Below, one piece after another: positions 1 to 28,366 of a stretch of 45,062 nucleotides of DNA. The notes beneath the pieces are model-generated. The model saw nothing but the letters and a program-made list of their open reading frames with translations, had not been told where the DNA came from and searched no databases. Origin of the DNA: an uncultured Prevotellaceae bacterium (GTDB taxonomy: Bacteria; Bacteroidota; Bacteroidia; Bacteroidales; Muribaculaceae); NCBI GenBank assembly GCA_900318335.1, contig ONKF01000026.1, positions 1-45,062 on the forward strand, read 5' to 3'. The stretch's first letter is position 1. Every line of letters begins with the position of its first letter. The position numbers were made by a program, and so were the translations under genes.

Positions 1-51
1 AGCAGTGGACTGAAAATCCGCGTGTCCCTGGTTCGATCCCCGGAGGTACCA
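1..51 (+). tRNA. tRNA-Phe (GAA), 3' part only
   Basis: The window opens inside a tRNA. The anticodon stem is 5-9 / 17-21 with loop CTGAAAA at 10-16, giving anticodon GAA (Phe). The variable loop is at 22-26 and the T arm at 27-43 has loop TTCGATC at 32-38 with one T:C mismatch. The 3' acceptor strand is 44-50 and the discriminator A is 51. CCA is not encoded. The D arm and 5' acceptor strand lie outside the window. Copies of this gene's 3' end recur downstream. Confidence 0.9.
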
Positions 52-70
52 CATCAAAAACACGAAGCGA

Positions 71-100
71 CCGACTGCCCGCGCAGCCGGCCGTTTTTTT
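71..100 (+). terminator. Rho-independent terminator after tRNA-Phe
   Basis: Stem 71-78 / 83-90 (one A:C mismatch), loop 79-82, then a T run at 94-100. The same hairpin recurs after four downstream genes, so it belongs to a duplicated segment. Confidence 0.85.
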
Positions 101-297
101 GTTTGTGTGTTTGTGCTCGGTCACTCATTCGTTCGTCCATTCATTCATACGAATGGGTACATGATGGCGACTGACCTGACTTTTTCCCTGCTTTCTCACG
201 CATGCATGAATGAACGGTCGAACGGATAGGGACTGTCTAATTTCTTGGCACTTTTTCGTTTTTTTCCTGGCGATTGGCTTTTTTGTTTGTGAAAGGC
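101..297 (+). repeat. Leader repeat copy 1 (upstream of LRR gene 1)
   Basis: This gene-free stretch is the first of four copies of a roughly 200-bp sequence found upstream of each BspA-type gene (others near 2665, 7255 and 8980). It holds an imperfect long-range inverted repeat: a TTCGTTCGTCC-type arm near 128 and a GAACGGTCGAACGG arm near 212. A pyrimidine-rich stretch and a TGGCGATTGGCT block near 267 follow, then the promoter. No coding signal is seen. Confidence 0.75.
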
Positions 298-328
298 TTG
301 TTTACTCTTATGGCTAAGCTTATCTTTG
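298..328 (+). promoter_or_regulatory. Bacteroidetes-type promoter of LRR gene 1
   Basis: TTG at 298-300, 20-nt spacer, then TATCTTTG at 321-328, matching the TAnnTTTG -7 element of the Bacteroidetes primary sigma factor. The start codon is 36 nt after the -7 box. The same TTG-N20-TATCTTTG arrangement precedes the LRR genes at 2915, 7436 and 9229. Confidence 0.8.
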
Positions 329-364
329 CGGCAACAATCAATAACACTTAATACCTAAAGACAA

Positions 365-2398
365 ATGAAAAACTTACTCACATCCACAATCCTGTTGCTG
401 GCACTCCTGTTGCCCGCACTCGCCACGGCCGCCGACATTGAGGTCGATGGCATCTATTACAACATCAACCGCATCAACGCCACCGCCACCGTCACCTTTG
501 GTAATAATGAATACAAAGGCTCAGTAACCATCCCTGCCACCGTCACCCATGACGGTACAACCTACGCCGTCACCACCATTGGCGAATTGGCGTTCTCTCG
601 CTGCATTTACTTGACCGACATCAACATCCCCAACTCCGTTACTGACATCGGCTACGGGGCGTTCTCTCGCTGCAAGAGTTTGACCGAAATCAGCATCCCC
701 AACTCCGTCACTACTATTGATGATGCGGCGTTCAGTGAATGCTCCTTCCTGACTACCATCAGCATTCCCAACTCCGTCACCACCATCGGCGACATGGCAT
801 TCTCTGGCACTGGTTGGTATAGCAACCAACCAGACGGATTGGTCTATGCGGGATTGGTCGCTTATAAATATAAAGGCACAATGCCCCCGGGGACAAGCAT
901 CACACTAAAAGAAGGAACATTAAGTATTTCTGACTATGCGTTCGCTGACTGCACTGGGCTGACCGGCATCGTCATTCCCAACTCGGTAACTTATATCGGT
1001 GATTGGACGTTCGCTTCCTGCGAGAGCCTGACTAGCATGGACATCCCCAAGTCTGTAACAAAGATTGGCGAGGATGCGTTCTATGATACTCCATGGTTCA
1101 ATAACCAGCCCGACGGATTGGTCTATGCCGGCACGGTCGCTTATCAATATAAAGGCACAATGCCAAGCGGAACGAATATAACTTTAAGAAATGGAACCAC
1201 AAGTATAACTGGCGACGCGTTCAGATACTGCACAGGTCTGACCAGCATCGTCATTCCCAACTCGGTAACTGATATCGGTGCCGGGGCGTTCGCACACTGC
1301 ACAGATCTGACCAGCGTCAATATTCCCAACTCGGTAACTGTTATCCGTGGCGATACTTTCGTGTTTTGCAGTGGATTGACCAGCATCGTTATCCCCAACT
1401 CGGTAGATTCTATCGCTGGCGAAGCATTCTCTGGCTGCACGGGGCTGACCAGCATCGTCATTCCCAATTCGGTAACTAGGATTGACCGCAAGGCGTTCGA
1501 TTGGTGCTCAGGTCTGACCAGTATCGTGGTAGAAAGTGGCAATCCAAGATATGATTCGCCCAACGACTGTAATGCAATTATAGAGACCGCCTCTAATACT
1601 TTAATTGCTGGCTGCAAGAACACGATTATCCCCAACTCGGTAACTAAGATTGGCGACTATGCGTTCGATGGCCGCACGGGGCTGACCAGCATCGTCATCC
1701 CCAACTCGGTAACTGCTATCGGTTTCATGGCGTTCAAGGGATGCAGTGGACTGTCCAGCATCGATATCCCCAACTCGGTAACTAAGATCGGCACCCATGC
1801 GTTCGGTAACTGCACTGGGCTGACCAGCATCGTCATTCCCAACTCGATAACTGAGATCGGTGACAATACGTTCTCTGGCTGCAGTGGGCTGACCAGCATC
1901 GTCATCCCCAACTCGGTGACTAGGATCGGTCAACAGGCGTTCGGTGGCTGCACTGGACTGTCCAGCATCGTCATCCCCAACTCGGTGACTAGAATTGACT
2001 TCAAAGCGTTCGATTGGTGCACTGGACTGTCGGATGTGTATAGCTACATTGCTGACCCCTTAAGAGTATCGAACGGGTATGATGATCCATGTTATTGGTG
2101 GTATTTGTATGATGGCGACTACTCAGGTCGCACACTTCATGTTCTACAGGGAATGACTGGTGCCTACCAAGCCGATGAGCGCTGGTACCCCTATTTCGGG
2201 CAGATTGTGGAAGATATATTCCTGGGCGACGTGAATCGTGACCTTGAGGTCAATATTGCTGATGTAAACGCCGCCATCGACATCATCTTGGGCGGAAATG
2301 ATGACACTATTGCTGCCGACGTGAACGGTGACGGAGAAATCAACATCGCCGACATCAACGCCTTGATTGACATCATCTTGAGCGGCACACCGAATTAG
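365..2398 (+). CDS. BspA-type LRR surface protein with dockerin-like C-terminus (array gene 1)
   Basis: A 677-residue secreted protein with a signal peptide (about residues 1-22, cleavage near ALATA). About 18 LRR_5 (BspA-type) repeats of 22-24 residues follow, built on IPNSVTxIGxxAFxxCxGLTSI. Two repeats are interrupted by a W(Y/F)xNQPDGLVYAG...YKGTMP insert (about residues 130-160 and 235-265), and one by a SGNPRYDS...CNAIIETASNTLIAGC insert. The C-terminus has two EF-hand-like dockerin repeats, GDVNRDLEVNIADVN and ADVNGDGEINIADIN. The family is known for surface adhesion and protein or glycan binding; the ligand here is unknown. The start is the ATG just before a typical lysine-containing signal peptide, downstream of a good promoter. 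A tRNA-derived tail and terminator follow. DNA repeats within the gene make length changes likely. Confidence 0.92.
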   Translation: MKNLLTSTILLLALLLPALATAADIEVDGIYYNINRINATATVTFGNNEYKGSVTIPATVTHDGTTYAVTTIGELAFSRCIYLTDINIPNSVTDIGYGAFSRCKSLTEISIPNSVTTIDDAAFSECSFLTTISIPNSVTTIGDMAFSGTGWYSNQPDGLVYAGLVAYKYKGTMPPGTSITLKEGTLSISDYAFADCTGLTGIVIPNSVTYIGDWTFASCESLTSMDIPKSVTKIGEDAFYDTPWFNNQPDGLVYAGTVAYQYKGTMPSGTNITLRNGTTSITGDAFRYCTGLTSIVIPNSVTDIGAGAFAHCTDLTSVNIPNSVTVIRGDTFVFCSGLTSIVIPNSVDSIAGEAFSGCTGLTSIVIPNSVTRIDRKAFDWCSGLTSIVVESGNPRYDSPNDCNAIIETASNTLIAGCKNTIIPNSVTKIGDYAFDGRTGLTSIVIPNSVTAIGFMAFKGCSGLSSIDIPNSVTKIGTHAFGNCTGLTSIVIPNSITEIGDNTFSGCSGLTSIVIPNSVTRIGQQAFGGCTGLSSIVIPNSVTRIDFKAFDWCTGLSDVYSYIADPLRVSNGYDDPCYWWYLYDGDYSGRTLHVLQGMTGAYQADERWYPYFGQIVEDIFLGDVNRDLEVNIADVNAAIDIILGGNDDTIAADVNGDGEINIADINALIDIILSGTPN

Positions 2399-2450
2399 AT
2401 ATAACTGGTTGCCAAAATGACAACCGGGATCGAGACTCATCCGTCCGAGA

Positions 2451-2512
2451 CCGGAGGTACCACATCAATAACACAAAGCGACCGACTGCCCACGCAGCCG
2501 GCCGTTTTTTTG
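2451..2512 (+). repeat. tRNA-Phe 3'-end remnant plus terminator, copy 2
   Basis: CCGGAGGTACCACATC at 2451-2466 matches the end of the tRNA-Phe T arm and acceptor strand (positions 40-55) and is followed by the same terminator: stem 2482-2489 / 2494-2501 and T run 2505-2511. Only the last part of the tRNA is present, so it is not a functional tRNA. It acts as the terminator of the LRR gene at 365 and marks a duplication boundary. Confidence 0.8.
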
Positions 2513-2529
2513 TTGGGAAATGCTGGCCT

Positions 2530-2579
2530 GTTCATCCGTTCGTTCGCTATTATATATAAATATGAACGAACGGATGAAC
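2530..2579. repeat. Perfect 16-bp inverted repeat with AT-rich centre
   Basis: Arms GTTCATCCGTTCGTTC (2530-2545) and GAACGAACGGATGAAC (2564-2579) are exact reverse complements around an 18-nt AT-rich centre. The arm sequence is of the same type as the inverted-repeat arms in the leader repeats but is present as a compact palindrome only here. Function unknown: a recombinase or protein binding site, or a hairpin. Confidence 0.8.
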
Positions 2580-2599
2580 GTATAGAAAGGTTGTGTCAT

Positions 2600-2845
2600 C
2601 GCAAGTTTTGACGCAAACCTATTCTAATCATATATAATTAATTTCTCTCAATACTACAGTTATAATACATTCGTTCGTCCGTTCATACGAATGGGTACGT
2701 GATGGCGACTGAGACCTGACTTTTTCCCTGTTTTCTCACGCATGCATGAATGAACGGATGAACGGATAGGGGCAGTTCACTGACAAAATATTGGACACTT
2801 TTTCTTTTTTTTTCCTGGCGATTGGCTTTTTTGTTTGTGAAAGGC
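2600..2845 (+). repeat. AT-rich spacer and leader repeat copy 2
   Basis: 2600-2665 is AT-rich sequence with no recognised feature. From about 2669 the sequence is a near copy of the leader before the first LRR gene (GAATGGGTAC, GCATGCATGAATGAACGG and TGGCGATTGGCT blocks in the same order). No gene is supported in this gap. Confidence 0.75.
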
Positions 2846-2876
2846 TTGTTTACTCTTATGGCTAAGTTTATCTTTG
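2846..2876 (+). promoter_or_regulatory. Promoter of LRR gene 2
   Basis: TTG 2846-2848, 20-nt spacer, TATCTTTG 2869-2876. The layout is identical to the promoter at 298-328. Confidence 0.8.
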
Positions 2877-2914
2877 CGACAACAATCATTAACGCTTAAA
2901 ACCCAACGACTAAA

Positions 2915-4537
2915 ATGAAAAACATTATCACATCCTCAATCCTGGTGCTGGCCCTCCTGTTGCCTGCACTCGCCACGGCTCACGACTTCGAGGTCGATAG
3001 CATCTATTACAACATCAACGGCAATGAGGCTACCGTGACTTTTAGAACTTACGATCATTCTTATTATCCTTTTTCCGGTGGGTATTCAGGCTCTGTCGTC
3101 ATCCCGGCCACCGTCACCTACAATGGAATCACCTACCCGGTAACTTCTATCGGTGACCAGGCGTTCTATAACTGCCGTGGTCTGACCAGCGTCGACATCC
3201 CCAACTCGGTAACTTCTATCGGTCGCGTGGTGTTCTATAACTGCACTGGACTGACCAGCATAGTCATCCCCAACTCGGTAACAGCAATCGGTGTCCAGGC
3301 GTTCGAGGACTGCACTGGACTGACCAGCATCGACATCCCCAACTCGGTAACAGCAATCGGTGGCTATGCGTTCAATAATACAGCATGGTACAATAACCAG
3401 CCAGACGGAATGGTCTATGCTGGCAAGGTCGCTTATAAGTATAAAGGCACGATGCCAAGCGGAACGAATATGACTTTCAAAGAAGGAACATTAGGCATTG
3501 CTGGCTATGCGTTCGAGGGCTGCATTGGAATGACTGGCATTGTCATCCCCAACTCGGTAACTGAGATCAATGGTATGGCGTTCTTTGACTGCCCCGTGCT
3601 GACCAGCATCGTGGTAGAAAGCGGGAATCCAAGATATGATTCGCGCAACAACTGCAATGCAATTATAGAGACTGCCTCTAATACTTTATTTTTGGGCTGC
3701 GACAACACGATTTTCCCCAACTCGATAACTGCTATCGGTGACGGTGCATTCTCTGGCTGCACTGGGTTGACCAGCATCGATATCCCCAACTCGGTGACTT
3801 CTATCGGTGACGATGCGTTCGCTGACTGCACTGGACTAACAAGTTTCAACATTCCCAACTCGTTAACTTATGTCGGTGGCTATGCGTTCGATAATACAGC
3901 ATGGTACAATAACCAGCCAGACGGATTGGTCTATGTCGGCATGTTCGCTTATGGCTATAAAGGCACGATGCCAAGCGGAACGAATATGACTTTCAAAGAA
4001 GGAACATTAGGCATTGCTGGTGGGGCGTTCCATAGCTGCACTGGATTGGCCAGCATCGTCATCCCCAACTCGGTAACTTATATCGGTGACTATGCGCTCT
4101 ACTACTGCACTGGGTTGACCAGCATCGACATCCCCAACTCGGTAACTTCAATCGGTGACGAGGCGTTCTCCTGGTGCTCGGGGCTGACGGATGTGTATAG
4201 CTACATTGCTGACCTCTCGAGCGTATCGAGCGGGTATGAACAATTTGGTGATTACTATGGCTCTGGCCGTACGCTACATGTGCTGCAGGGGACGGCTGAT
4301 GCCTACCGTGCTAACAAGAACTGGTATCCCTATTTCGTGCAGATTGTGGAAGATATATTCATTGGCGACGTGAATCGTGACCTTGAGGTCAATATTGCTG
4401 ATGTGAATGCCGTCATTAGCATCATCTTGGGTGGAAATGATGACACTATTGCCGCCGACGTGAACGGTGACGGAGAAATCAACATCGCCGACATCAATGC
4501 CTTGATTGACATCATCCTGAGCGGCACACCGAATTAG
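2915..4537 (+). CDS. BspA-type LRR surface protein with dockerin-like C-terminus (array gene 2)
   Basis: A 540-residue paralogue of the protein encoded at 365. It has a signal peptide (about 1-22), about 12 BspA-type LRRs, two WYNNQPDGxVYxG...YKGTMPSGTN inserts (about 150-180 and 330-360) and one SGNPRYDSRNNCNAIIETASNTL insert. The C-terminal segment from the LPYF/VQIVEDIF region through two dockerin-like repeats is almost identical to the first gene. Identity continues past the stop codon for about 68 bp to the tRNA-derived tail, so the two genes share a recent duplication or conversion tract. Role inferred: cell-surface or secreted binding protein. Ligand unknown. Confidence 0.92.
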   Translation: MKNIITSSILVLALLLPALATAHDFEVDSIYYNINGNEATVTFRTYDHSYYPFSGGYSGSVVIPATVTYNGITYPVTSIGDQAFYNCRGLTSVDIPNSVTSIGRVVFYNCTGLTSIVIPNSVTAIGVQAFEDCTGLTSIDIPNSVTAIGGYAFNNTAWYNNQPDGMVYAGKVAYKYKGTMPSGTNMTFKEGTLGIAGYAFEGCIGMTGIVIPNSVTEINGMAFFDCPVLTSIVVESGNPRYDSRNNCNAIIETASNTLFLGCDNTIFPNSITAIGDGAFSGCTGLTSIDIPNSVTSIGDDAFADCTGLTSFNIPNSLTYVGGYAFDNTAWYNNQPDGLVYVGMFAYGYKGTMPSGTNMTFKEGTLGIAGGAFHSCTGLASIVIPNSVTYIGDYALYYCTGLTSIDIPNSVTSIGDEAFSWCSGLTDVYSYIADLSSVSSGYEQFGDYYGSGRTLHVLQGTADAYRANKNWYPYFVQIVEDIFIGDVNRDLEVNIADVNAVISIILGGNDDTIAADVNGDGEINIADINALIDIILSGTPN

Positions 4538-4589
4538 ATATAACTGGTTGCCAAAATGACAACCGGGATCGAGACTCATCCGTCCGAGA

Positions 4590-4650
4590 CCGGAGGTACC
4601 ACATTAAAAACACAAAGCGGCCGACTGCCCGTGCAGCCGGTCGCTTTTTT
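4590..4650 (+). repeat. tRNA-Phe 3'-end remnant plus terminator, copy 3
   Basis: CCGGAGGTACCACAT at 4590-4604 again matches the tRNA-Phe 3' end. The hairpin has longer arms, 4614-4628 / 4633-4647 (15 positions with one mismatch and one G:T), and a T run. It terminates the LRR gene at 2915, and in reverse could also serve the minus-strand gene ending at 4717. Confidence 0.8.
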
Positions 4651-4716
4651 ATTTCCTGACTCGTTACTTTTTCTTAAAAGGACTCAATAAGATAGTCAGT
4701 TCGGTGGATTGCTCGC

Positions 4717-5157
4717 TTAGAACAACTTGTTTATCTCGAGGGTAAGCTTTTCTTCTTCGGGAGCATTGGGTCTGTAGATGAATTCAATCTCCCGGCCACC
4801 AGTCTCGGCAATGTAAATTTGCCTGTCTTCGGCGGGCCATGAAATCTCATTATTGTGATTACGAACGATCCTGAAATAGATTTCGGCACCTTCCTGGAAA
4901 TAACCGCCCTTCCTCAAATGGTAGGAGCCGTCAGCGGCCTTTGTCATTTCGTTGCGCTCGTCGTAGGGATCCCATTCGCTTTCAAACAGGTTGGGGGTGC
5001 CGACAATCGTTCGGCCTGGGCCTGCGGTCAGGGTAATCCGGGCCATGCCCTCGGGGATGGGATCATTGATATTGGCCTTCGTCGGGTAACTCTGCTGGGC
5101 CTGCATCATGGAGAATCCCATAGCTGCCATCAGCGTAATCAAGAAATATTTCTTCAT
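4717..5157 (-). CDS. Small secreted SusE/F-like single-module protein
   Basis: A 146-residue protein with signal peptide MKKYFLITLMAAMGFSMMQAQ, then one module of about 95 residues: TIVGTPNLFESEWDP, an NEMTK...DGSYHLRKGGYFQEG segment, FRIVRNHNNEISWPAED, and a hydrophobic end. The same module recurs at the C-terminus of the frame ending at 7176 and twice in the protein at 11574-12776. It resembles the beta-sandwich modules of SusE/SusF and X25-type starch-binding domains; this is inferred from the W and FKVV/WPAE pattern, and binding is unproven. The ATG at 5157 was chosen because it starts the signal peptide and lies after a promoter. It is transcribed against the LRR genes and lacks a dockerin. 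Confidence 0.8.
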   Translation of the reverse strand: MKKYFLITLMAAMGFSMMQAQQSYPTKANINDPIPEGMARITLTAGPGRTIVGTPNLFESEWDPYDERNEMTKAADGSYHLRKGGYFQEGAEIYFRIVRNHNNEISWPAEDRQIYIAETGGREIEFIYRPNAPEEEKLTLEINKLF

Positions 5158-5225
5158 GAGCCTGTCATTTATAAAAACAATATGAATAATAGTAGTTATT
5201 ATCAGCTGGTCATCAAAGGATTGTG

Positions 5226-5256
5226 CAAAGGTAAAAAGTTCTCTCCCTCCCAACAA
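5226..5256 (-). promoter_or_regulatory. Promoter of the small SusE/F-like gene (minus)
   Basis: On the minus strand, TTG (5256-5254), 20-nt spacer, TACCTTTG (5233-5226). It sits about 69 nt upstream of the start at 5157. The remaining gap from 5257 to 5414 is AT-rich with no other feature seen. Confidence 0.7.
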
Positions 5257-5414
5257 TAGATGATCCAAATAGAATACAAATTTGTTCCGCTAACAAGTGA
5301 TGCACGACACGGTTTTTACAGATTATTATATAATGTTTAACCTTAGCCCCACACGGAAAATGCAGATGCCAGCAAAAATCTAACGCCTAAATAAGATATT
5401 TACAGAATATTTAC

Positions 5415-5422
5415 TAATTTTG
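5415..5422 (+). promoter_or_regulatory. -7 element of the DUF285 gene
   Basis: TAATTTTG fits TAnnTTTG, 40 nt before the ATG at 5462. No clear -33 element is seen. Confidence 0.55.
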
Positions 5423-5461
5423 CGACAAATTTCATTATTTACGTGTTTAATTGTTTGTATT

Positions 5462-6457
5462 ATGAAGAATTCGTTGCTTTTTTGCATGGTCGTCCTGGTG
5501 GCGGCTATGATGTGCTCCCTTGGCGCCAGTGCCAAAGAGGCCTATGCTTGCTACACGTCTGAGAACAAGACGTTCACTTTTTACTACGACGACGAGCGCA
5601 GCACCCGCCCGGACTACACCTGGTTACTGCAAGATGAGCCAGGCCATTTACCCTCGTGGTCTTTGTCGCTTCTTCCTGTGACCAAGGCAGTCTTTGACCG
5701 CTCGTTCGCTAATTACCGCCCGACGACCACCCATGGATGGTTTTACTTTATGCAGAAACTTGAGTCTATCACGGGCATAAGTTACCTGAACACCAGCGAG
5801 GTCACCGATATGGGTGAAATGTTTGTTAATTGTATACAATTGACAAGTCTTGACCTGAACGGTCTCAACACGTCCAAGGTAACCAATATGAGTCACATGT
5901 TCTGTGACTGCACTGCCTTGACAAGTCTTAACCTGAACGGTCTCAACACGTCCAATGTAACCAATATGGGTGGCATGTTCGATGGCTGCACCAGTCTGCA
6001 AACCATCATTGTGGGTGAGCGCTGGAACACAGCCGCAGTGACTTTTTCCAAAGATATGTTCCATAACACCACCAGCCTGGTGGGCGGCATGGGCACGGTA
6101 TATAACGAATCCAACCCGACGGACAAGACCTACGCCCACATCGACGACGGCCCCAGCAACCCGGGCTATTTCACTGCTTCGGGTACCGTGGCCTATGTCT
6201 GCTACACGCCGGAGAACACGACATTATCTTTCTACTACGACAACAAGATTGGCAGTCGCCCGGGCGGTATCTACACCATCGAGGGTCACGAGCCAGGTAT
6301 ACCCATGTGGCATTGGGATTATCCTTATGTGACCAAGGCAGTCATTGACCCCTCGTTTGCTGATTACCGCCCGACGAGCACCAATGGGTGGTTTTATGAT
6401 ATGCCATATCTTAAGTCTATCACGGGCATACAATACCTTTCAACACGGCCAATGTGA
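5462..6457 (+). pseudogene. BspA/DUF285-type protein, N-terminal piece of a broken gene
   Basis: A secreted protein (signal peptide MKNSLLFCMVVLVAAMMCSLGASA) whose repeats read NTSxVTxMxxMFxxCxxLTSLDL, the BspA-like DUF285 surface-repeat family. Two units begin with a YxCYTxENKTFTFYYD strand and an ITGxxYL segment. In the second unit the reading frame passes directly from ITGIQYL into STRPM-stop. In the next frame the DNA continues with FNTANVNTMTRMF, which normally lies about 27 residues further on in such a unit. An out-of-frame internal deletion near 6437 therefore ends this piece. The ATG at 5462 is preferred over an upstream TTG because it starts the signal peptide shared with the gene at 15071. 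Whether the two halves are still expressed is unknown. Confidence 0.8.
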
Positions 6458-7176
6458 ATACCATGACACGCATGTTTACAGACTGTGAACATTTGAAGAC
6501 CATCTATGTGAGTGATGAATGGAGCAATGCTTCGTTGCAATATTCAGGTCGCATGTTCGCTGGCTGTAACAGCCTGGTTGGTGGCCAGGGCACGACCTAT
6601 GATGAAGGTCATGTTGATGGTGTCTACGCCCACATCGATGGAGGCCCGAGCAATCCCGGCTACCTCACCAAGAGGCCTGCCTTCACCCGCGGTGACGTGA
6701 ATGATGACCTCGACATCACCATCGTTGACGTATCCTACTTGATTGACTACCTGCTCTCCAGCAATGTTTCTGGCATCAACATGAGTGGTGCCGATTGCGA
6801 CCTGGACGGTGACGTCTCTGTCAGCGACGTGTCGGTGCTCATCGACTACTTGTTGAATGGCAACTGGCCCGAACCGGTTTACACCGTTGTCGGTACCGCC
6901 AACCTGTTTGAAAGCGAGTGGGACCTCAACGACGAGCGCAATAACATGACTAAGGGCGCTGATGGCATCTACCGTATAAACAAGGCCGGTTGGTTCCCGG
7001 AAGGTACCGAAATCTATTTCAAGATTGTTACTAATCACTCTTATGCCTACTCATGGCCCGCCGAAAGTAGGCTCATTTACATTTACGAGACTGGTGCCTT
7101 CAGCATTGACATCATTTTCGATCCCAATGCTCCCGACAATCAGAAGATTAACATTGATATGAACAAGATTTTCTAA
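6454..7176 (+). pseudogene. DUF285/dockerin/SusE-like protein, C-terminal piece of the broken gene
   Basis: A 240-residue frame continuing the gene at 5462 after the deletion. It has half a DUF285 unit (MTRMFTDC...LKTIYV), a GxxxYDExHVDGVYAHIDGGPSNPGYL closing segment, and two dockerin-like repeats (GDVNDDLDITIVDVS and ADCDLDGDVSVSDVS). It ends in one SusE/F-like module (YTVVGTANLFESEWD ... FKIVTNHSYAYSWPAES). The only upstream start is GTG at 6454, which overlaps the stop of the N-terminal piece (TGA 6455-6457). Reinitiation is possible but it has no signal peptide, so export would fail. Together with the first piece it shows the original architecture: signal, DUF285 repeats, dockerin, SusE-like module. 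Confidence 0.75.
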
Positions 7177-7208
7177 GCGAGAGAAATGTATAAAAAGGGA
7201 TGAAATGA

Positions 7209-7238
7209 CCGGCTGCCCGCGCAGCCGGCCGTTTTTTT
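7209..7238 (+). terminator. Terminator, copy 4
   Basis: Perfect stem 7209-7216 / 7221-7228 with a CCGC loop and a T run at 7232-7238. It is the same hairpin family as after tRNA-Phe, but here without the tRNA-derived bases in front. Confidence 0.85.
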
Positions 7239-7254
7239 GTGTAGAGTGATGCTG

Positions 7255-7368
7255 TGTCTCACGCATGCATGAATGAACGGACGAACGGATAGGGGCTGTT
7301 AAGTGTCTAATTTTTTGGCACTTTTTTGTTTTTTTTCTTGGCGATTGGCTCTATTGTTGCTGAACGGC
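7255..7368 (+). repeat. Leader repeat copy 3 (shortened)
   Basis: Starts at the CTCACGCATGCATGAATGAACGGACGAACGG block and lacks the first arm and the GAATGGGTAC segment present in copies 1, 2 and 4. The TTGGCGATTGGCT block is kept. No coding signal is seen. Confidence 0.7.
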
Positions 7369-7399
7369 TTGTTTGATTTCATGGCTATACTTATCTTTG
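7369..7399 (+). promoter_or_regulatory. Promoter of LRR gene 3
   Basis: TTG 7369-7371, 20-nt spacer, TATCTTTG 7392-7399. Confidence 0.8.
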
Positions 7400-7435
7400 C
7401 GACAACAATCAATAACACGTAATACCTAAAGACAA

Positions 7436-8872
7436 ATGAAAAACTTACTCACATCTACAATCCTGGTGCTGGCCCTCCTGATGCCCGCACTCGCCACGGC
7501 CGCCGACTTCGAGGTCGATGACATCTGTTACAACATCAACGGCAACGAGGCCGCCGTGACTCGCAAAGGTCTTCCTGGTTATCTGTTTATTGGGTATTCA
7601 GGCCCTGTCGTCATCCCAGCCACCGTCACCTACGATGGAATCACCTACCCGGTAACTTCTATCGAAGCCCTTGCGTTCTATCACTGCACTGAGTTGACCA
7701 GCATCGATATCCCCAACTCGGTAACTGAGATCGGTCAAGAGGCGTTCGGGCGCTGCCCTGGGCTGGCCAGCATCGTGGTAGAAAGTGGCAATCCAAGGTT
7801 TGATTCGCGCAACAACTGCAATGCAATTATAGAGACCGCCAATAATGTGTTAATTGCTGGCTGCAAGAATACGATTATCCCCAACTCGGTAACTGAGATA
7901 GGTAACTTTGCGTTCGATGCCTGCGACAGTCTGACCAGTATCGTCATCCCCAACTCGGTGACATCCATCGGTCAATATGCGTTCTATAGCTGCTCGGGGC
8001 TGACCAGCATCAATATTCCTAACTCGGTGACTTCTATCGGTCACGGGGCGTTCGCCTGGTGCAGTGGTCTGACCAGCATCGTCATTCCCAACTCTGTAAC
8101 TGAGATTGGTGTCGGGGTGTTCGATGACTGCACCGAACTGGCCAGCATCGTGGTAGAAAGTGGCAATCCAAGATATGATTCGCGCAACAACTGCAATGCA
8201 ATTATAGAGACCGCCAATAATATGTTAATTGTTGGCTGCATGAACACGACTATTCCCAACTCGGTGACTGTTATCGGTTACTGGGCGTTCTATAGCTGCT
8301 CGGGGCTGACCAGCATCGACATCCCCAACTCGGTAACTGAGATCGGTGAAGGGGCGTTCAGTGATTGCACAGGGCTGGCCAGCATCGTCATCCCCAACTC
8401 AGTAACTGAGATTGGTGGCTGGGCGTTCTATAGCTGCTCGGGGCTGACCAGCATCGACATCCCCAACTCGGTAACTGCTATCGGCGACAGCGCGTTCTAT
8501 GATTGCGGGCGGCTGACAGATGTGTATTGCTACATTGCTGACCTCTCGAAAGTATCGAGCGGGAATGATCAATTCTATAAGCGTAATGGTAGTTACTCTG
8601 GTCGTACACTTCATGTGCGGCAGGGGACGGCTGATGCCTACCGGGCTGATGAGAACTGGTATCCTTATTTCGGACAGATTGTGGAAGATATCATTACGGG
8701 AGACGCGAATCGTGACTTGGAGGTCAACATTGCTGATGTGAATGCCGTCATCGACATGATTCTGGAAGGAAATGATGACACTATTGCTGCCGACGTGAAC
8801 GGTGATGGCGAGATCAACATTGCCGACATCAATGCCTTGATCAGCATTATCCTGAGCGGCAAACAGAATTAG
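7436..8872 (+). CDS. BspA-type LRR surface protein with dockerin-like C-terminus (array gene 3)
   Basis: A 478-residue paralogue of the proteins at 365 and 2915. It has a signal peptide (about 1-22), about 10 BspA-type LRRs, and two copies of the SGNPR(F/Y)DSRNNCNAIIETANN insert (about 120-150 and 240-270). It has none of the WYNNQPDG inserts. The C-terminus has dockerin-like repeats GDANRDLEVNIADVN and ADVNGDGEINIADIN. The usual first-repeat Val is replaced by Ala (GDAN), which leaves the acidic and Asn calcium-ligand positions intact. A degraded tRNA-derived tail and terminator follow. Inferred role: surface or secreted ligand-binding protein. Confidence 0.92.
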   Translation: MKNLLTSTILVLALLMPALATAADFEVDDICYNINGNEAAVTRKGLPGYLFIGYSGPVVIPATVTYDGITYPVTSIEALAFYHCTELTSIDIPNSVTEIGQEAFGRCPGLASIVVESGNPRFDSRNNCNAIIETANNVLIAGCKNTIIPNSVTEIGNFAFDACDSLTSIVIPNSVTSIGQYAFYSCSGLTSINIPNSVTSIGHGAFAWCSGLTSIVIPNSVTEIGVGVFDDCTELASIVVESGNPRYDSRNNCNAIIETANNMLIVGCMNTTIPNSVTVIGYWAFYSCSGLTSIDIPNSVTEIGEGAFSDCTGLASIVIPNSVTEIGGWAFYSCSGLTSIDIPNSVTAIGDSAFYDCGRLTDVYCYIADLSKVSSGNDQFYKRNGSYSGRTLHVRQGTADAYRADENWYPYFGQIVEDIITGDANRDLEVNIADVNAVIDMILEGNDDTIAADVNGDGEINIADINALISIILSGKQN

Positions 8873-8900
8873 ATATAACTGGAGTCTGCTGCAAAACTCT

Positions 8901-8959
8901 GGACGTACCACATCAAAAACACGAAGCGGCCGACTGCCCGTGCAGCCGGCCGTTTTTTT
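8901..8959 (+). repeat. tRNA-Phe 3'-end remnant plus terminator, copy 5
   Basis: GGACGTACCACATC (8901-8914) is the tRNA-tail repeat with one substitution. The terminator stem is 8930-8937 / 8942-8949 with a T run at 8953-8959. Confidence 0.75.
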
Positions 8960-8979
8960 GTGTAGAGTGATGCTGGCCT

Positions 8980-9163
8980 TTTCATCTGTTCGTCCGTTCG
9001 TGCGAATGGGTACGTGATGGCGACTGAGACCTGACATGTTCCCTGCTTTCTCACTCATGCATGAATGAATGAACGGACGAACGGATAGGGGCTGTTCACT
9101 ATCTAATTTTTTGACACTTTTTAGCTTCTTTCTTGACGATTGGCTCTTTTGTTGCTGAAAGGC
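8980..9163 (+). repeat. Leader repeat copy 4
   Basis: The full leader, with both inverted-repeat arms: CTGTTCGTCCGTTC near 8988 and GAACGGACGAACGG near 9072. The ATGA tetranucleotide run is one unit longer than in the other copies. No coding signal is seen. Confidence 0.75.
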
Positions 9164-9228: not shown

Positions 9229-11472
9229 ATGAAAAACTTAATTACATCTGTACTCCTTCTGTTAACACTGTTGCTGCCAGCCACCGCCCTGGCCCACGAC
9301 TTTGAGGTGGACGGTATCTACTACAACATCGATGGCAACGAAGCCACTGTCACGTATGGAACAACGAGATATGCTGGTGATGTGATCATTCCCCCGTCTG
9401 TAACTTACGAGGGCACGACCTACTCGGTCACCACCATCGGCGAGCACGCGTTCCGCTACTGCTTCAACACGCTGAGCGTGACCTTGCCCAGCACTATCAC
9501 CACCATTGTCGACGAAGCCTTCTTTAACAGCCTTGGCCTGTCCAGCATCATCGTGGATAACGGTAACCCAAAATTCGATTCCCGCGATGGATGTAACGCC
9601 ATCATTGAGACGTCAACCAGCACATTGATTGTCGGCTGCAAGTGCACTGTCATCCCCAACACTGTCACCGCCATCGGAAACGGAGCATTCGATGCCTGTG
9701 GCCTGACAAGCATTGAAATTCCTAATTCGGTCACTACCATTGGCAACAATGCGTTCAGCCACAATGCCTTGACAAACGTGACAATCGGTAACTCGGTCAC
9801 CTCCATCGGCGACCATGCTTTTTCTCAATGCTATAAACTCACGAGTGTGGTCATCCCCAACTCGGTCATCACCATGGGCAGCTATGTGTTCTGGTGTTGC
9901 AGTGGCCTGAAGAACGTGACCCTGGGCAACGCTCTTACCGCTATCAGCGACCATGCCTTCGATGAATGCAGCAACCTGGCGAGCGTGGACATCCCCAACT
10001 CCGTCACTGCTATCGGCGATGAGGCGTTCGCTGCCTGCCGTGCCATGACGAGCGTGACCTTTCCTAACTCGCTCACCACCATCGGCAACAATGTGTTCTG
10101 GAACTGCAATAATCTAACGGGCGTGACCCTCCCCAACTCGCTTACCACCATTGGCATCGGCACATTTTGGAACTGTGGCGGCCTGACCAGCCTGGTCATT
10201 CCCAATTCGGTCATCAACATCGGTAGCAGTGCATTCTGGAGCTGCAGCAACCTGACGAGCGTTTCCCTGTCCAATTCCCTCACTTCCATCAGCAGTAGTG
10301 TGTTTGAGGACTGCATCGGGTTGACGAGTGTAGAGATTCCTAACTCGGTCACCTCGATTGGTGCAGACGCTTTCACTGGCTGCAGTAGCCTGTCAAGCGT
10401 GACCATCCCTAATTCTGTCATCATCGTTGGCCAAGGAGCATTTGCGGGTACACCATGGTACGACAACCAATCCGACGGGCTTGTATATGCTGGACTGGCG
10501 GCATATAATTATAAAGGCACGATGCCTGACGGCACCAGCATCATTTTGAAAGATGGCACGTTAAGTATCAGTGATTATGCTTTCTCTGGCTGCAGTGGCT
10601 TGACGAGTATAACCATCCCCAACTCGGTCATCGCTATTGGTAACGGGGCGTTTGAGGAATGCAGCGGCCTGACAAACCTGACCATCCCCAACTCCGTGGC
10701 CACTATCGGTCAATGGGCATTCAAGGACTGCAGCGGCCTGTCAAGTGTGGAGATTCCCAACTCGGTCACGGCCGTCGGCTTCGCGGCATTTTCAGGTACA
10801 CCTTGGTACAACAACCTGCCAGATGGAGTTGTATATGTTGGATTGGCTGCTTATGCCTACAAAGGCACGATGCCTGATGATACCAGTATCATCTTGAAGG
10901 ATGGAACAGTGAGTATCACTGATTTTGCTTTCTCTGGCCGCCATGGCTTGACGAGCATAACCCTCCCCAACTCAGTGACCACCATTGGCCAAGAAGCGTT
11001 CGGTGAATGCAGTGGTCTAACGACCTTGACCATCCCCTGTTCCGTTACTTCCCTGGGTGATGGGGCTTTTTGGGGTTGCAATGGCCTGACTGATGTGTAT
11101 AGCTACATCGCCGACCTCTCAAAAGTGAAAAGCGGGAGAACTTTGTTCTATGTATGGTCAGGAAGTTGGATACCTGAAGATAGTTACGACTACTCTGGTC
11201 GCACGCTTCATGTGCTTCAGGGTACAGCCGAGGCCTATCGGGCCGATAAGTGTTGGAATCCCTATTTCGGGCAGATTGTGGATGACTTGAAGCCTGACCT
11301 GCCTGGTGACGTGAATAGCGACCTTGAGATCAGTATTGCTGATGTTAACGCCGTCATTGACATCATCTTGGGAGGAACTGATGGCACTCCTGCTGCCGAC
11401 GTGAACGGTGACGGAGAAATCAACATCGCCGACATCAATGCCCTCATCGACATCATCCTGAGCACCACCTAG
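9229..11472 (+). CDS. BspA-type LRR surface protein with dockerin-like C-terminus (array gene 4)
   Basis: The longest member at 747 residues, with a signal peptide (about 1-23) and about 21 BspA-type LRRs. It has one SGNPKFDSRDGCNAIIETSTSTL-like insert (about 105-130) and two PWY(D/N)N...DGxVYxGLAAYxYKGTMPD inserts (about 405-435 and 525-555). The end has the shared YSGRTLHVLQGTAEAY segment and two dockerin-like repeats (GDVNSDLEISIADVN, ADVNGDGEINIADIN). Its repeats are more diverged at DNA level than those of the other three, and its downstream sequence is different: no tRNA-derived tail, and a separate strong terminator. It therefore looks like the outer, older end of the array. Ligand unknown. 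Confidence 0.92.
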   Translation: MKNLITSVLLLLTLLLPATALAHDFEVDGIYYNIDGNEATVTYGTTRYAGDVIIPPSVTYEGTTYSVTTIGEHAFRYCFNTLSVTLPSTITTIVDEAFFNSLGLSSIIVDNGNPKFDSRDGCNAIIETSTSTLIVGCKCTVIPNTVTAIGNGAFDACGLTSIEIPNSVTTIGNNAFSHNALTNVTIGNSVTSIGDHAFSQCYKLTSVVIPNSVITMGSYVFWCCSGLKNVTLGNALTAISDHAFDECSNLASVDIPNSVTAIGDEAFAACRAMTSVTFPNSLTTIGNNVFWNCNNLTGVTLPNSLTTIGIGTFWNCGGLTSLVIPNSVINIGSSAFWSCSNLTSVSLSNSLTSISSSVFEDCIGLTSVEIPNSVTSIGADAFTGCSSLSSVTIPNSVIIVGQGAFAGTPWYDNQSDGLVYAGLAAYNYKGTMPDGTSIILKDGTLSISDYAFSGCSGLTSITIPNSVIAIGNGAFEECSGLTNLTIPNSVATIGQWAFKDCSGLSSVEIPNSVTAVGFAAFSGTPWYNNLPDGVVYVGLAAYAYKGTMPDDTSIILKDGTVSITDFAFSGRHGLTSITLPNSVTTIGQEAFGECSGLTTLTIPCSVTSLGDGAFWGCNGLTDVYSYIADLSKVKSGRTLFYVWSGSWIPEDSYDYSGRTLHVLQGTAEAYRADKCWNPYFGQIVDDLKPDLPGDVNSDLEISIADVNAVIDIILGGTDGTPAADVNGDGEINIADINALIDIILSTT

Positions 11473-11573: not shown

Positions 11574-12776
11574 TTAGAACACCTCGGTAATAACGACGTG
11601 AACCTTGTCTTCGTCGTTATTGTAGGGATTGAAGACGATCTCATAGTTGAAGGCGCCAGTCTTGTAAACGCCAATGGAGAAGTCTTCAGCGGGCCATGAA
11701 TGGGTATAGGAGTGGTCTTGAACGACCTTGAACCTGATGTCGGTACCCTCCTGGAACCAACCGGCCTTGTTCAAACGGTAGATACCGTCAGTACCCTTAA
11801 CCATTTCGTTGCCAGGATAATAGGGGTCCCAGTCGGCTTCAAACAGGTTGGGGGTGCCGACAACGGTGTAAACGTGCTCGATGTCGCCGGTCTTGGTCAA
11901 GGTGCAGGTGATGCGGTTAGCTTCCTCGGCTTCGGGATCGAATGTGATGTCGATGGTGTAGATGCCTTCCTCGGCTACGGTAGCAACATAGTTATTGCCT
12001 TCTCCGATGGGCCACTCATAGATGCTCCAGTTGTGGTCGCCCACCACCTTGAACTCGAAGTTTTCGGTCAGGGCAACGCCAGTCTTGGTCAAATGGTAGA
12101 TACCGTCATCACCCTTAACCATGTTGTTGTTATTATCGGTGGGATCCCAGTTGCTGCCAAAGACAGACTCAGCGCCGGCAACGGTGTAAACCATCTCATG
12201 TGCGGGCCAGGTGCCACTCAGCAGGAAGTTAATGAGGCAGGTCACGTCCGAAATGTTCACCTTGCCGTCATGGTCGCAGTCGGCAGCGGTAGGAGCGGCC
12301 TGGTTCTCCAGCAGAATGTTGATCAGCGCGGTCGCATCCGAGATGTTGACATTGGAATCACCATCCACATCACCACGGGTTCCGCCTTCAATCTTGAACT
12401 TCATGTTCGTCTCGTCAAAGGTGATGGTGTACTCATCGCCAGTACCCTTGAGGCAGTAGGCGCCATTGTTACCAGCAGCCATTTGGGTGTTGTACTCGAC
12501 ACCAGCCACAACGGTCATGTCTCCGTTTATCGGGCCAATACGGTAATTGGCGTTGAAGACGTCCCAATCGGCATCCAGTTGGGTGCCAAACACAAACCAA
12601 ACATTGCCCGAAAGGGTGGCCTTGTAGGTGTAGATCCCATTCTCGTAGGTCATTTCAACACCAGCGTCGGGTTGCCAGTCGCCAAAGGGGTCTTGGCCCA
12701 CGATGTAAATTGCCGCATTAGCATTGAAGGCAATGAGGCTAATCATCATTGATAAAAACAGTGTTAATTTTTTCAT
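11574..12776 (-). CDS. Secreted multi-module protein: N-terminal beta domain, dockerin, two SusE/F-like modules
   Basis: 400 residues with signal peptide MKKLTLFLSMMISLIAFNANA. Residues about 20-130 form a beta-rich module starting IYIVGQDPFGDWQPDAG, like starch- or glucan-binding SusE/F or CBM-type domains. A dockerin pair follows at about 135-195 (GDVDGDSNVNISDAT, ADCDHDGKVNISDVT). Two SusE/F-like modules complete it (YTVAGAESVFGSNWDP and YTVVGTPNLFEADWDP, each with an FKVVxDHxxxxxWP motif). The last module is the closest relative of the 4717 protein and of the end of the broken gene at 6454. Likely an exported carbohydrate-binding or scaffold-associated protein; no catalytic domain is seen. 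The ATG at 12776 was chosen as the signal-peptide start, and the frame extends only a few codons further upstream. Confidence 0.85.
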   Translation of the reverse strand: MKKLTLFLSMMISLIAFNANAAIYIVGQDPFGDWQPDAGVEMTYENGIYTYKATLSGNVWFVFGTQLDADWDVFNANYRIGPINGDMTVVAGVEYNTQMAAGNNGAYCLKGTGDEYTITFDETNMKFKIEGGTRGDVDGDSNVNISDATALINILLENQAAPTAADCDHDGKVNISDVTCLINFLLSGTWPAHEMVYTVAGAESVFGSNWDPTDNNNNMVKGDDGIYHLTKTGVALTENFEFKVVGDHNWSIYEWPIGEGNNYVATVAEEGIYTIDITFDPEAEEANRITCTLTKTGDIEHVYTVVGTPNLFEADWDPYYPGNEMVKGTDGIYRLNKAGWFQEGTDIRFKVVQDHSYTHSWPAEDFSIGVYKTGAFNYEIVFNPYNNDEDKVHVVITEVF

Positions 12777-25871: not shown

Positions 25872-26510
25872 TTAATGGGCGCATGTTCTGCGTGCGGCAG
25901 TTTCCCACGGGAGTAGGGAGATGTCTTCGGCCAGGACGATGACGGGCATGCCAACGTAGGCAAAATGCTCTTTCAGCGTGATAATGTCCTTGTCGAGCAG
26001 GCGGATGCAGCCCTCGCTGGCACGGCCGGGGACGGAATTCTCATTGTTGGTGCTGCCGTGGATGCCTATGCTCTTAAAGCCTGGTGTGGCCAGTCGCAGG
26101 AACCAGTGCCCGTAGGCCCTAATGTTGCCGCGGCCATCGTGGAAATCATGTTTCCAGGTCGAGGCGTCTTGTATCATGGTGATTTTGAAAGGTTTGCCTG
26201 CTGGTGATTCAGGGGTACGCATGTCGCCGCGGCGCTGCTTGTTGCCTTTGTTCTTGCCCATGCAGCAGGGGAACTGGGCCACCATGACGGTGTCGCCCGT
26301 GGTGTTGCGGTCATAGACCGTGAGCGTTTGGTTCAACTTGGAAATCACGATAAAGGCAGTGCGCGTCGGAGTAGCGGGCAGGGGTGGCAGCTGTACTGAC
26401 GTTGCCGAGTCTTGGGCTGTGGCCTCGTTCAGCCCAATGCCATTATGTTGGTTAGCGGCTCCTGCAAAGGGCAGAAACAGCAGGATTACCAGGACGATAT
26501 TCTTGATCAT
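25872..26510 (-). CDS. L,D-transpeptidase (YkuD family)
   Basis: 212 residues from ATG 26510. It has a signal peptide (about 1-18, LLFLPFAGAAN), then a YkuD catalytic domain opening with FIVISKLNQTLTVYD. The active-site block IGIHGSTNNENSVPGRASEGCIRLLDKDI carries the conserved His and the nucleophilic Cys of the HG...SxGCxR motif. It cross-links peptidoglycan or attaches protein to it in the periplasm, or trims it. It is a compact single-domain form without LysM or a peptidoglycan-binding domain, similar to ErfK/YafK-like secreted enzymes. Confidence 0.92.
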   Translation of the reverse strand: MIKNIVLVILLFLPFAGAANQHNGIGLNEATAQDSATSVQLPPLPATPTRTAFIVISKLNQTLTVYDRNTTGDTVMVAQFPCCMGKNKGNKQRRGDMRTPESPAGKPFKITMIQDASTWKHDFHDGRGNIRAYGHWFLRLATPGFKSIGIHGSTNNENSVPGRASEGCIRLLDKDIITLKEHFAYVGMPVIVLAEDISLLPWETAARRTCAH

Positions 26511-26534
26511 AGCGGTTGATGATTGATTTGGTGG

Positions 26535-26565
26535 CAAAGGTACTCATATTCCCCGAAGTGGACAA
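26535..26565 (-). promoter_or_regulatory. Promoter of the L,D-transpeptidase gene
   Basis: Minus strand: TTG (26565-26563), 20-nt spacer, TACCTTTG (26542-26535). It lies 25 nt upstream of the start codon. Confidence 0.75.

Positions 26566-27046: not shown

Positions 27047-28366
<1,320 letters not shown>

Follow-up and report, generated by a model that had tools for sequence, protein, structure and literature searches.

Why should the 3′ end of a tRNA gene recur, with its terminator, behind a row of surface-protein genes? The question is raised by contig ONKF01000026.1 of an uncultured Prevotellaceae bacterium (assembly GCA_900318335.1), whose whole 45,062 nucleotides are called the window here. 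The window is contig C47 of its genome (G000), a draft assembly of 3.15 Mb in 70 contigs; in what follows G denotes genomes, C contigs and L stretches of sequence. Five genes of the leucine-rich repeat (LRR)/BspA or DUF285 type follow a tRNA-Phe gene in the window, and displaced copies of the tRNA end and its terminator, which we call tails, stand behind several of them. The tails are most likely remnants of attachment sites, and the LRR/BspA genes passengers gathered at tRNA-Phe and later reshuffled by homologous recombination, a reading that we hold to be probable. The whole tRNA-Phe gene is present at the end of another contig, C60 (L037:23-95, anticodon gaa by ARAGORN), the last 74 bases of which are identical to window positions 1-74; ARAGORN reported no tRNA on the window alone because the window begins inside tRNA-Phe. 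The parts of the array are as follows.

1..52, + strand: 3′ part of tRNA-Phe, cut by the contig edge (74-base overlap with L037, ARAGORN)
40..52, + strand: putative attachment core CCGGAGGTACCAC (attB), the final 13 bases of tRNA-Phe, common to attB in G013 and to attL and attR of the family II element (described below) in G071
66..101, + strand: intrinsic terminator of tRNA-Phe (-12.9 kcal/mol, z -2.2, then T7)
365..2398, + strand: gene 1, BspA LRR_5 and dockerin (PF13306, 3e-121; PF00404, 3.1e-6)
2407..2425, + strand: inverted arm-type site GGTTGCCAAAATGACAACC, starting 44 nt upstream of the core
2451..2514, + strand: displaced tail 1, core and terminator (sequence match, hairpin fold)
2915..4537, + strand: gene 2, BspA LRR_5 and dockerin (Pfam domains)
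4546..4564, + strand: inverted arm-type site, starting 44 nt upstream of the core
4590..4653, + strand: displaced tail 2 (sequence match, hairpin fold)
5420..7176, + strand: DUF285/BspA-type gene, split into open reading frames (ORFs) 5420-6457 and 6454-7176 (ORFs, Pfam)
7178..7240, + strand: tail 3, reduced to the terminator by a 46-nt deletion that takes in the core (comparison with relatives)
7436..8872, + strand: gene 4, BspA LRR_5 and dockerin (Pfam domains)
8899..8962, + strand: displaced tail 4, with no recognised arm-type site upstream (sequence match)
9229..11472, + strand: gene 5, BspA LRR_5 and dockerin, no tail behind (Pfam domains, tail search)

A preliminary description of the sequence had claimed that the tRNA-Phe 3′ end and terminator recur behind the genes ending at 2398, 4537 and 8872. 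This holds at 89-95% identity over 64 nt, the copies at 2451-2514, 4590-4653 and 8899-8962 matching positions 40-103 at 95%, 89% and 92%, respectively; a full tail (core plus terminator) thus stands behind three of the five LRR/DUF285-type genes. The order of parts given there (leader, promoter, surface-protein gene, tRNA tail, terminator) is correct. The terminator that it placed alone behind 7176 was also seen (7178-7241, 70% identity to 40-103), and by comparison with relatives it is a deletion derivative, because L106, L072 and L103 retain 46 nt, core included, that are absent from the window at this place. Behind the fifth gene (9229-11472) the tail search finds no match. A search of the window's own genome with a 75-nt tail query gave six matches at E ≤ 0.001, namely five on C47 and the tRNA on C60. 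It may be noted that the 60-nt unit, and not the 14-mer within it, exceeds chance: with up to three mismatches the 14-mer is not enriched as a class (7 observed vs 3.5 expected, with 7 of 100 shuffles reaching 7), the matches with 0-1 mismatch being the four tails.

With the own genome counted, the 75-nt query finds a match in 36 of the 101 genomes of the genus. In 29 of them one or more tails are present besides the tRNA's own terminator (40 fetched loci and the window), which gives at least 29 of 101 congeneric genomes with displaced tails. For some of the 29 (G071, G100), an element's right end is the sole displaced tail. A search of 198 genomes of the family found no tail outside the genus, the four genomes that match all belonging to it (1 of 30 genera). 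Scanning the GTDB species genomes with a 21-mer yielded seven stretches in six records, which are labelled Muribaculaceae, Prevotellaceae or Bacteroidales and come in part from goat or buffalo omasum. All six named records are metagenome-assembled genomes and the contig breaks at the repeat, which might suggest an artefact of repeats in draft metagenome assemblies; yet the displaced tails occur in 29 of the 101 genomes with different genes, the same junction is present on an independent viral contig and the flanks are conserved, making such an artefact highly improbable. In the usual layout of the locus a variable stretch follows tRNA-Phe, and several genomes then have a YkuD gene and enolase. 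G020 offers the empty site, with tRNA, terminator, YkuD and enolase and no LRR gene between.

We examined 57 displaced tails; eight further tail places without a nearby tRNA-Phe were left out of this count and of the next. In 49 of the 57 the match anchors at q60-67 of the query, i.e. at the core, with varied sequence upstream, and in the other eight the core is lost or diverged. The 49 anchored tails have CCGGAGGTACCACATC in common, with 75-100% conservation per position (21 exact), and 27 of them carry GAGA directly before the core where the tRNAs have ATCC. Cassettes change place at this core: one and the same cassette is found behind a tail in one genome and behind the tRNA in another, from q60/61 onwards, in the pairs L067/L095, L071/L085 and L071/L086. 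The stretch behind tail 2 in G073 resembles the one behind the tRNA in G091, and G089 shows such a resemblance with G052 and G082. Taken alone, a sharp transition at q61 when tRNA and tail are compared between two genomes would fit an integrase and homologous recombination alike; arm homology discriminates better.

In relatives, two families of elements with a tyrosine integrase lie at tRNA-Phe and have the core CCGGAGGTACCAC as their boundary. In family I, the left end runs from tRNA-CCGGAGGTACCAC through a foreign terminator-like hairpin (judged by eye) to a PF00589 gene in L116 and L124; L125 has a similar integrase-like ORF, with no Pfam check, and the contig of L123 ends earlier. The right end consists of a helix-turn-helix (HTH) gene, a tail and LRR genes (L079, L080, L084, L104), and the same junction of HTH gene and tail is present on the IMG/VR viral contig L140, which carries a phage head-maturation protease. 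Family II has its left end in L113, L122 and L126, and its right end, a tyrosine recombinase facing the core with an arm between, in L141 (= L077), L142 and L143. These recombinases are 100, 81 and 78% identical, PF00589 being matched in L141 and L142, and the L143 core has one substitution. An occupied and an empty site can be compared in G071 and G013, which are 97.3% identical over 2613 nt beginning exactly at the core: in G013 the tRNA is followed directly by this common stretch, and in G071 the family II end and a tail precede it. As the two genomes are only about 82% identical upstream of the tRNA, this is a cross-species pair, and because the two element ends in G071 sit on different contigs, we infer their pairing. 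Judged by their position, both families are probably specific for the tRNA-Phe core. Six tail loci with no tRNA on the stretch (L077, L079, L080, L084, L098, L104) can be explained as right ends of such inserted elements, the matching left end adjoining a tRNA located on a different contig in G048, G059, G078, G100 and G071; in G064, the other of the six genomes, a tRNA-Phe search had no match.

The link between these elements and the LRR genes lies in the arm. In family II an inverted repeat, GGTTGTCAAAATGACAACC, is present between integrase and core, 137-138 nt before the latter (L077, L098), and LRR genes of L071, L075, L076, L078 and L099 have GGTTGTCAAAATGACAACC at the same 137-138 nt in a 3′ untranslated region (UTR) that aligns throughout. 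Shortened forms of the LRR 3′ UTR place the repeat 83, 71, 45, 44 or 28 nt before the core (44 in the window). The best match, between an LRR UTR of G029 and the integrase arm of G071, covers 135 of 138 positions. On comparing nine LRR arms with three family II elements, 26 of the 27 comparisons score above every one of 200 shuffles; the exception is L077 10554 against the G048 arm. The repeat lies at most 160 nt from 27 of the 57 displaced tails, two being the elements' own, as against 0 of 29 tRNA copies and 0 in 50 shuffles. It was also found at 5 of 262 other ORF ends: four are the ends of array LRR genes behind which no tail was recognised, and the fifth is an array-tail region read on the opposite strand; in the own genome it occurs at two places, both in this array. 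Since the LRR genes occupy the place of an element's right end, and the 3′ UTR of many of them is the integrase arm, they are most likely passengers. Of the two origins offered in the preliminary description, repeated integration at the 3′ end of the tRNA is supported by the core that bounds integrase elements in relatives and by the LRR 3′ UTRs that match an integrase arm.

The five terminator hairpins of the window fold better than most shuffles (z -2.2 to -4.7), as they would if the 3′ sequence were retained simply as a transcription terminator of the LRR genes, the tRNA piece being a hitchhiker with no recombination history. Neither core nor arm is needed for termination, however, and yet the core keeps its conservation across the 49 displaced tails and is the boundary of elements; we consider this explanation very unlikely. 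As attachment-site remnants, the tails would have arisen as follows. Tyrosine-integrase elements would insert at the final 13 bases of tRNA-Phe (CCGGAGGTACCAC), rebuilding the tRNA at one element end and pushing the old tRNA tail and terminator to the other (attR). The LRR/BspA genes would be units without an integrase, resembling cis-mobilizable elements (CIMEs), that accreted behind tRNA-Phe, and the core and terminator in each unit would preserve the tRNA and end the transcript of each gene. Homologous recombination between tails and inside genes would later reshuffle the array and swap blocks between species, and a few tails would be carried to other loci.

Such swaps are visible on comparing G000 with its relatives. 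G000 and G095 have a block in common that runs from inside gene 1 (about 420) to tail 2, at 90-100% identity per 60-nt step, mostly at least 95%. Gene 1 is also common to G000 and G067 from about 440 to its tail, and the block common to G073 and G091 fades within a gene. Over the noncoding leader of gene 2 (400 nt), G000 and G095 are 98.2% identical (98.7% ungapped). The corresponding values are 61.4% and 70.4% (80.9% and 85.3% ungapped) in two intergenic stretches used as controls, 91.7% in enolase, just 73.5% in the leader of gene 1 and 89.0% in the 3′ UTR and tail of gene 2. As the gene 2 leader is far more alike than the intergenic controls and enolase, the gene 2 block was probably exchanged after the two species split. 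Of 57 cross-genome cassette pairs, 21 without the flank gene were set aside, and in 14 of the remaining 36 best pairs, with the flank gene in both genomes, fourfold divergence is less than half that of the flank gene. An argument for transfer from this low synonymous divergence agrees with the exchange, but a control weakens it, as an LRR gene not belonging to the array has likewise diverged little (10.1% in G067, 13.5% in G054), and we do not rely on it; a second non-array LRR control had no full-length orthologue and was unused.

These exchanges bear on the other origin offered earlier, unequal crossing-over between tails. By tandem duplication and crossing-over alone, a tRNA end and its terminator, once copied by accident behind an LRR gene, would have been multiplied and spread by homologous recombination, and the integrase elements would share the site by coincidence. 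The 3′ ends of genes 1 and 2 are 89% identical, the G000/G095 block begins inside gene 1 and ends in tail 2, and tails are present at other loci, all of which favour it. It accounts neither for the 138-nt match of LRR 3′ UTRs to an integrase arm nor for the fact that tails preceded by different sequences begin at the very base that bounds integrated elements. As the sole account we consider it possible but rather unlikely; as a later contributor crossing-over fits, since exchange breakpoints fall inside genes.

Several results weigh against attachment-site accretion. Some of the exchange breakpoints fall inside LRR genes, and an age gradient, by which older tails would lie further from the tRNA, is not significant (S = 10 of 36, p 0.08 in 17 arrays; S = 6 of 28, p 0.19 in the 13 arrays with their own tRNA). 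Of six family II integrase orthologues of at least 70% identity, five were inspected beside G048:C54 (71%): arm and core adjoin three of them, and the fetched DNA of the other two, L144 and L145 (70%), has neither. The left and right element ends lie on different contigs of draft genomes. The arm repeat is unrecognised at 30 of the 57 tails, including window 7207 and 8901, and the second arm of family II (TTGACAACC twice) was not seen within 300 nt behind the cassette terminators. No joined attP was found in viral contigs with the patterns tried. A tyrosine integrase near the other end, expected in the preliminary description, was not found: the own genome has five Phage_integrase (PF00589) matches, none of them on C47 or C60, and no family II integrase at E ≤ 1e-60. 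Finally, tails at loci without tRNA-Phe, which the same description took as speaking against its reading, occur in part. Besides the six explained as element right ends, 14 further tail loci (L090, L091, L093, L096, L103, L106, L189-L196) lie on stretches without tRNA-Phe and are unexplained by an inserted element. Most of them are close to contig ends, while L090 (G094) and L195 (G058) are 18.7 and 37 kb from the nearest one, and therefore some tails are at other loci. The viral contigs searched held no related integrase, and further attP-type pattern matches in them were rejected as being at chance level.

Taken together, integrase accretion is the best account of the array's origin. The common core, the sharp boundary, the arm homology, the integrases beside the core, the single cross-species occupied/empty pair and the block exchange come from sequence comparison; that an integrase moved the LRR units themselves, in cis or in trans, and that the cassette terminators act in termination, we infer from them. 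The earlier interpretation thus survives in part, with integration as the origin and crossing-over as a later contributor, but without the integrase near the other end and with some tails away from any tRNA-Phe.

Other features of the array and its flanks are given below.

2640..2790, + strand: leader with palindromic repeat, array-specific (own-genome motif scan)
25875..26537, - strand: YkuD L,D-transpeptidase, right flank, also in G020, G095 and G084
27059..28366, + strand: enolase, right flank of the locus in several relatives

The array LRR proteins are probably secreted, from signal-peptide-like starts judged by eye. Palindromic leader repeats are present at 102-231, 2640-2790 and 8960-9098, as GAATGGGTAC..GGCGACTGA adjoining GAACGGAT-type inverted repeats, and the leader motif occurs in the own genome only at 151, 2689 and 9004 (up to three mismatches), all within the array; G095 has a different inverted-repeat insert behind its tRNA. 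The split DUF285/BspA-type gene (5420-7176), whose two ORFs overlap in the window, has a single-ORF counterpart of 619 aa in L072, and L106 is longer by about 150 nt at the break near 6438. Inverted homologous stretches lie at 4712-5006, 6887-7181 and 11685-11880 (76-77% identity), and the gene at 11577-12776 has an X25 pullulanase-type domain and a dockerin (Pfam). In G080 the tRNA-Phe stops after 47 nt and runs straight into the terminator, and in G066 it has an internal partial duplication (L099 6176-6249, L087 7899-8038); both may be real or assembly errors. Tails far from any tRNA-Phe on the stretch were seen at L195 6319-6367 (G058), L090 8717 (G094) and L196 3932-3987 (G015), of which the L195 tail has no close LRR neighbour (LRR matches of just 26-31%) and the L090 tail is located between a BspA-type gene and an LRR gene. 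Between two tails of G067 (L069 6188-12925) there is foreign cargo that resembles a TerY-type defence set: a kinase containing LRR_5 repeats, DarT linked with a TerY-like domain, and PP2C-like and DUF6939 proteins. A phage-type endolysin (muramidase) stands between an LRR gene and a tail in G082 (L086 7081-8061); this stretch is covered by blocks in common with G071 (L098) and G013 (L102), and is possibly a decayed prophage.

How does the array compare with known systems? In integrons, rows of genes, each followed by a recombination site, grow at a primary site. The array is similar in its gene rows with a site behind the gene and in a primary growth site, but it has no adjoining integrase gene (no intI-type tyrosine recombinase was found on C47 or C60), its site is a tRNA end and not attC, and its cassettes have their own leaders. 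A bolder reading, which we find doubtful, is that of integron-like cassettes without an integrase of their own: single surface-protein genes with arm, core and tRNA-type terminator at the 3′ end, gathered behind tRNA-Phe and swapped between species of one ruminant-gut genus by means of integrases from phages and islands with the same site. Tycheposons combine a tRNA border with a tyrosine recombinase inside the island, as described in PMC10872708, and the window array is without a recombinase. Closer are tandem islands and CIMEs: in our data direct repeats of the tRNA 3′ end bound units (three of five window genes), integrases occur at the same site in the same group of organisms (families I and II, with specificity taken from position), the units have no integrase of their own (no PF00589 on C47 or C60), and there are empty and occupied sites (G013/G071, of different species, and G020 for the whole array). 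The ssrA islands of Dehalococcoides (PMC3146451) lie in tandem behind an RNA gene with over a dozen direct repeats of its 3′ end and a conserved motif before the repeat, and 15 islands without an integration module are suggested there to be cis-mobilizable elements. The likeness lies in tandem units downstream of an RNA gene whose 3′ end is repeated at the unit boundaries; the target of the islands is tmRNA, however, their integrase is compared with Ccr recombinases, and they carry reductive dehalogenases and other cargo, whereas most units here hold one LRR/BspA gene in 1.5-3 kb, the duplication extends to the terminator and the integrases are tyrosine recombinases. CIME formation and accretion, as treated in PMC5704250, likewise stack integrase-less units that keep attachment sites with integrase-bearing elements at one site, but concern whole or decayed integrative and conjugative or mobilizable elements (ICEs/IMEs) and not rows of nearly single-gene units of one protein family. 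The additive flexible island of Methylopumilus also has recurring copies of a tRNA end, the last 20 bp of tRNA-Lys, but with metabolic and resistance-related functions, and the part of PMC10872708 at hand describes no integrase arm in gene 3′ UTRs. In the open literature, among the matches listed, we found no paper on this array. We regard it as a compact variant of tandem tRNA-targeted islands, in which most units consist of one gene followed by arm, core and terminator. The array supplies a concrete site, arm and integrase for the question of single-gene mobilisation at a tRNA gene, and it may explain the frequent contig breaks at this locus in these draft genomes. If true, the reading would show how a repeat-rich, probably secreted protein family stays a replaceable set in uncultured gut Bacteroidales.
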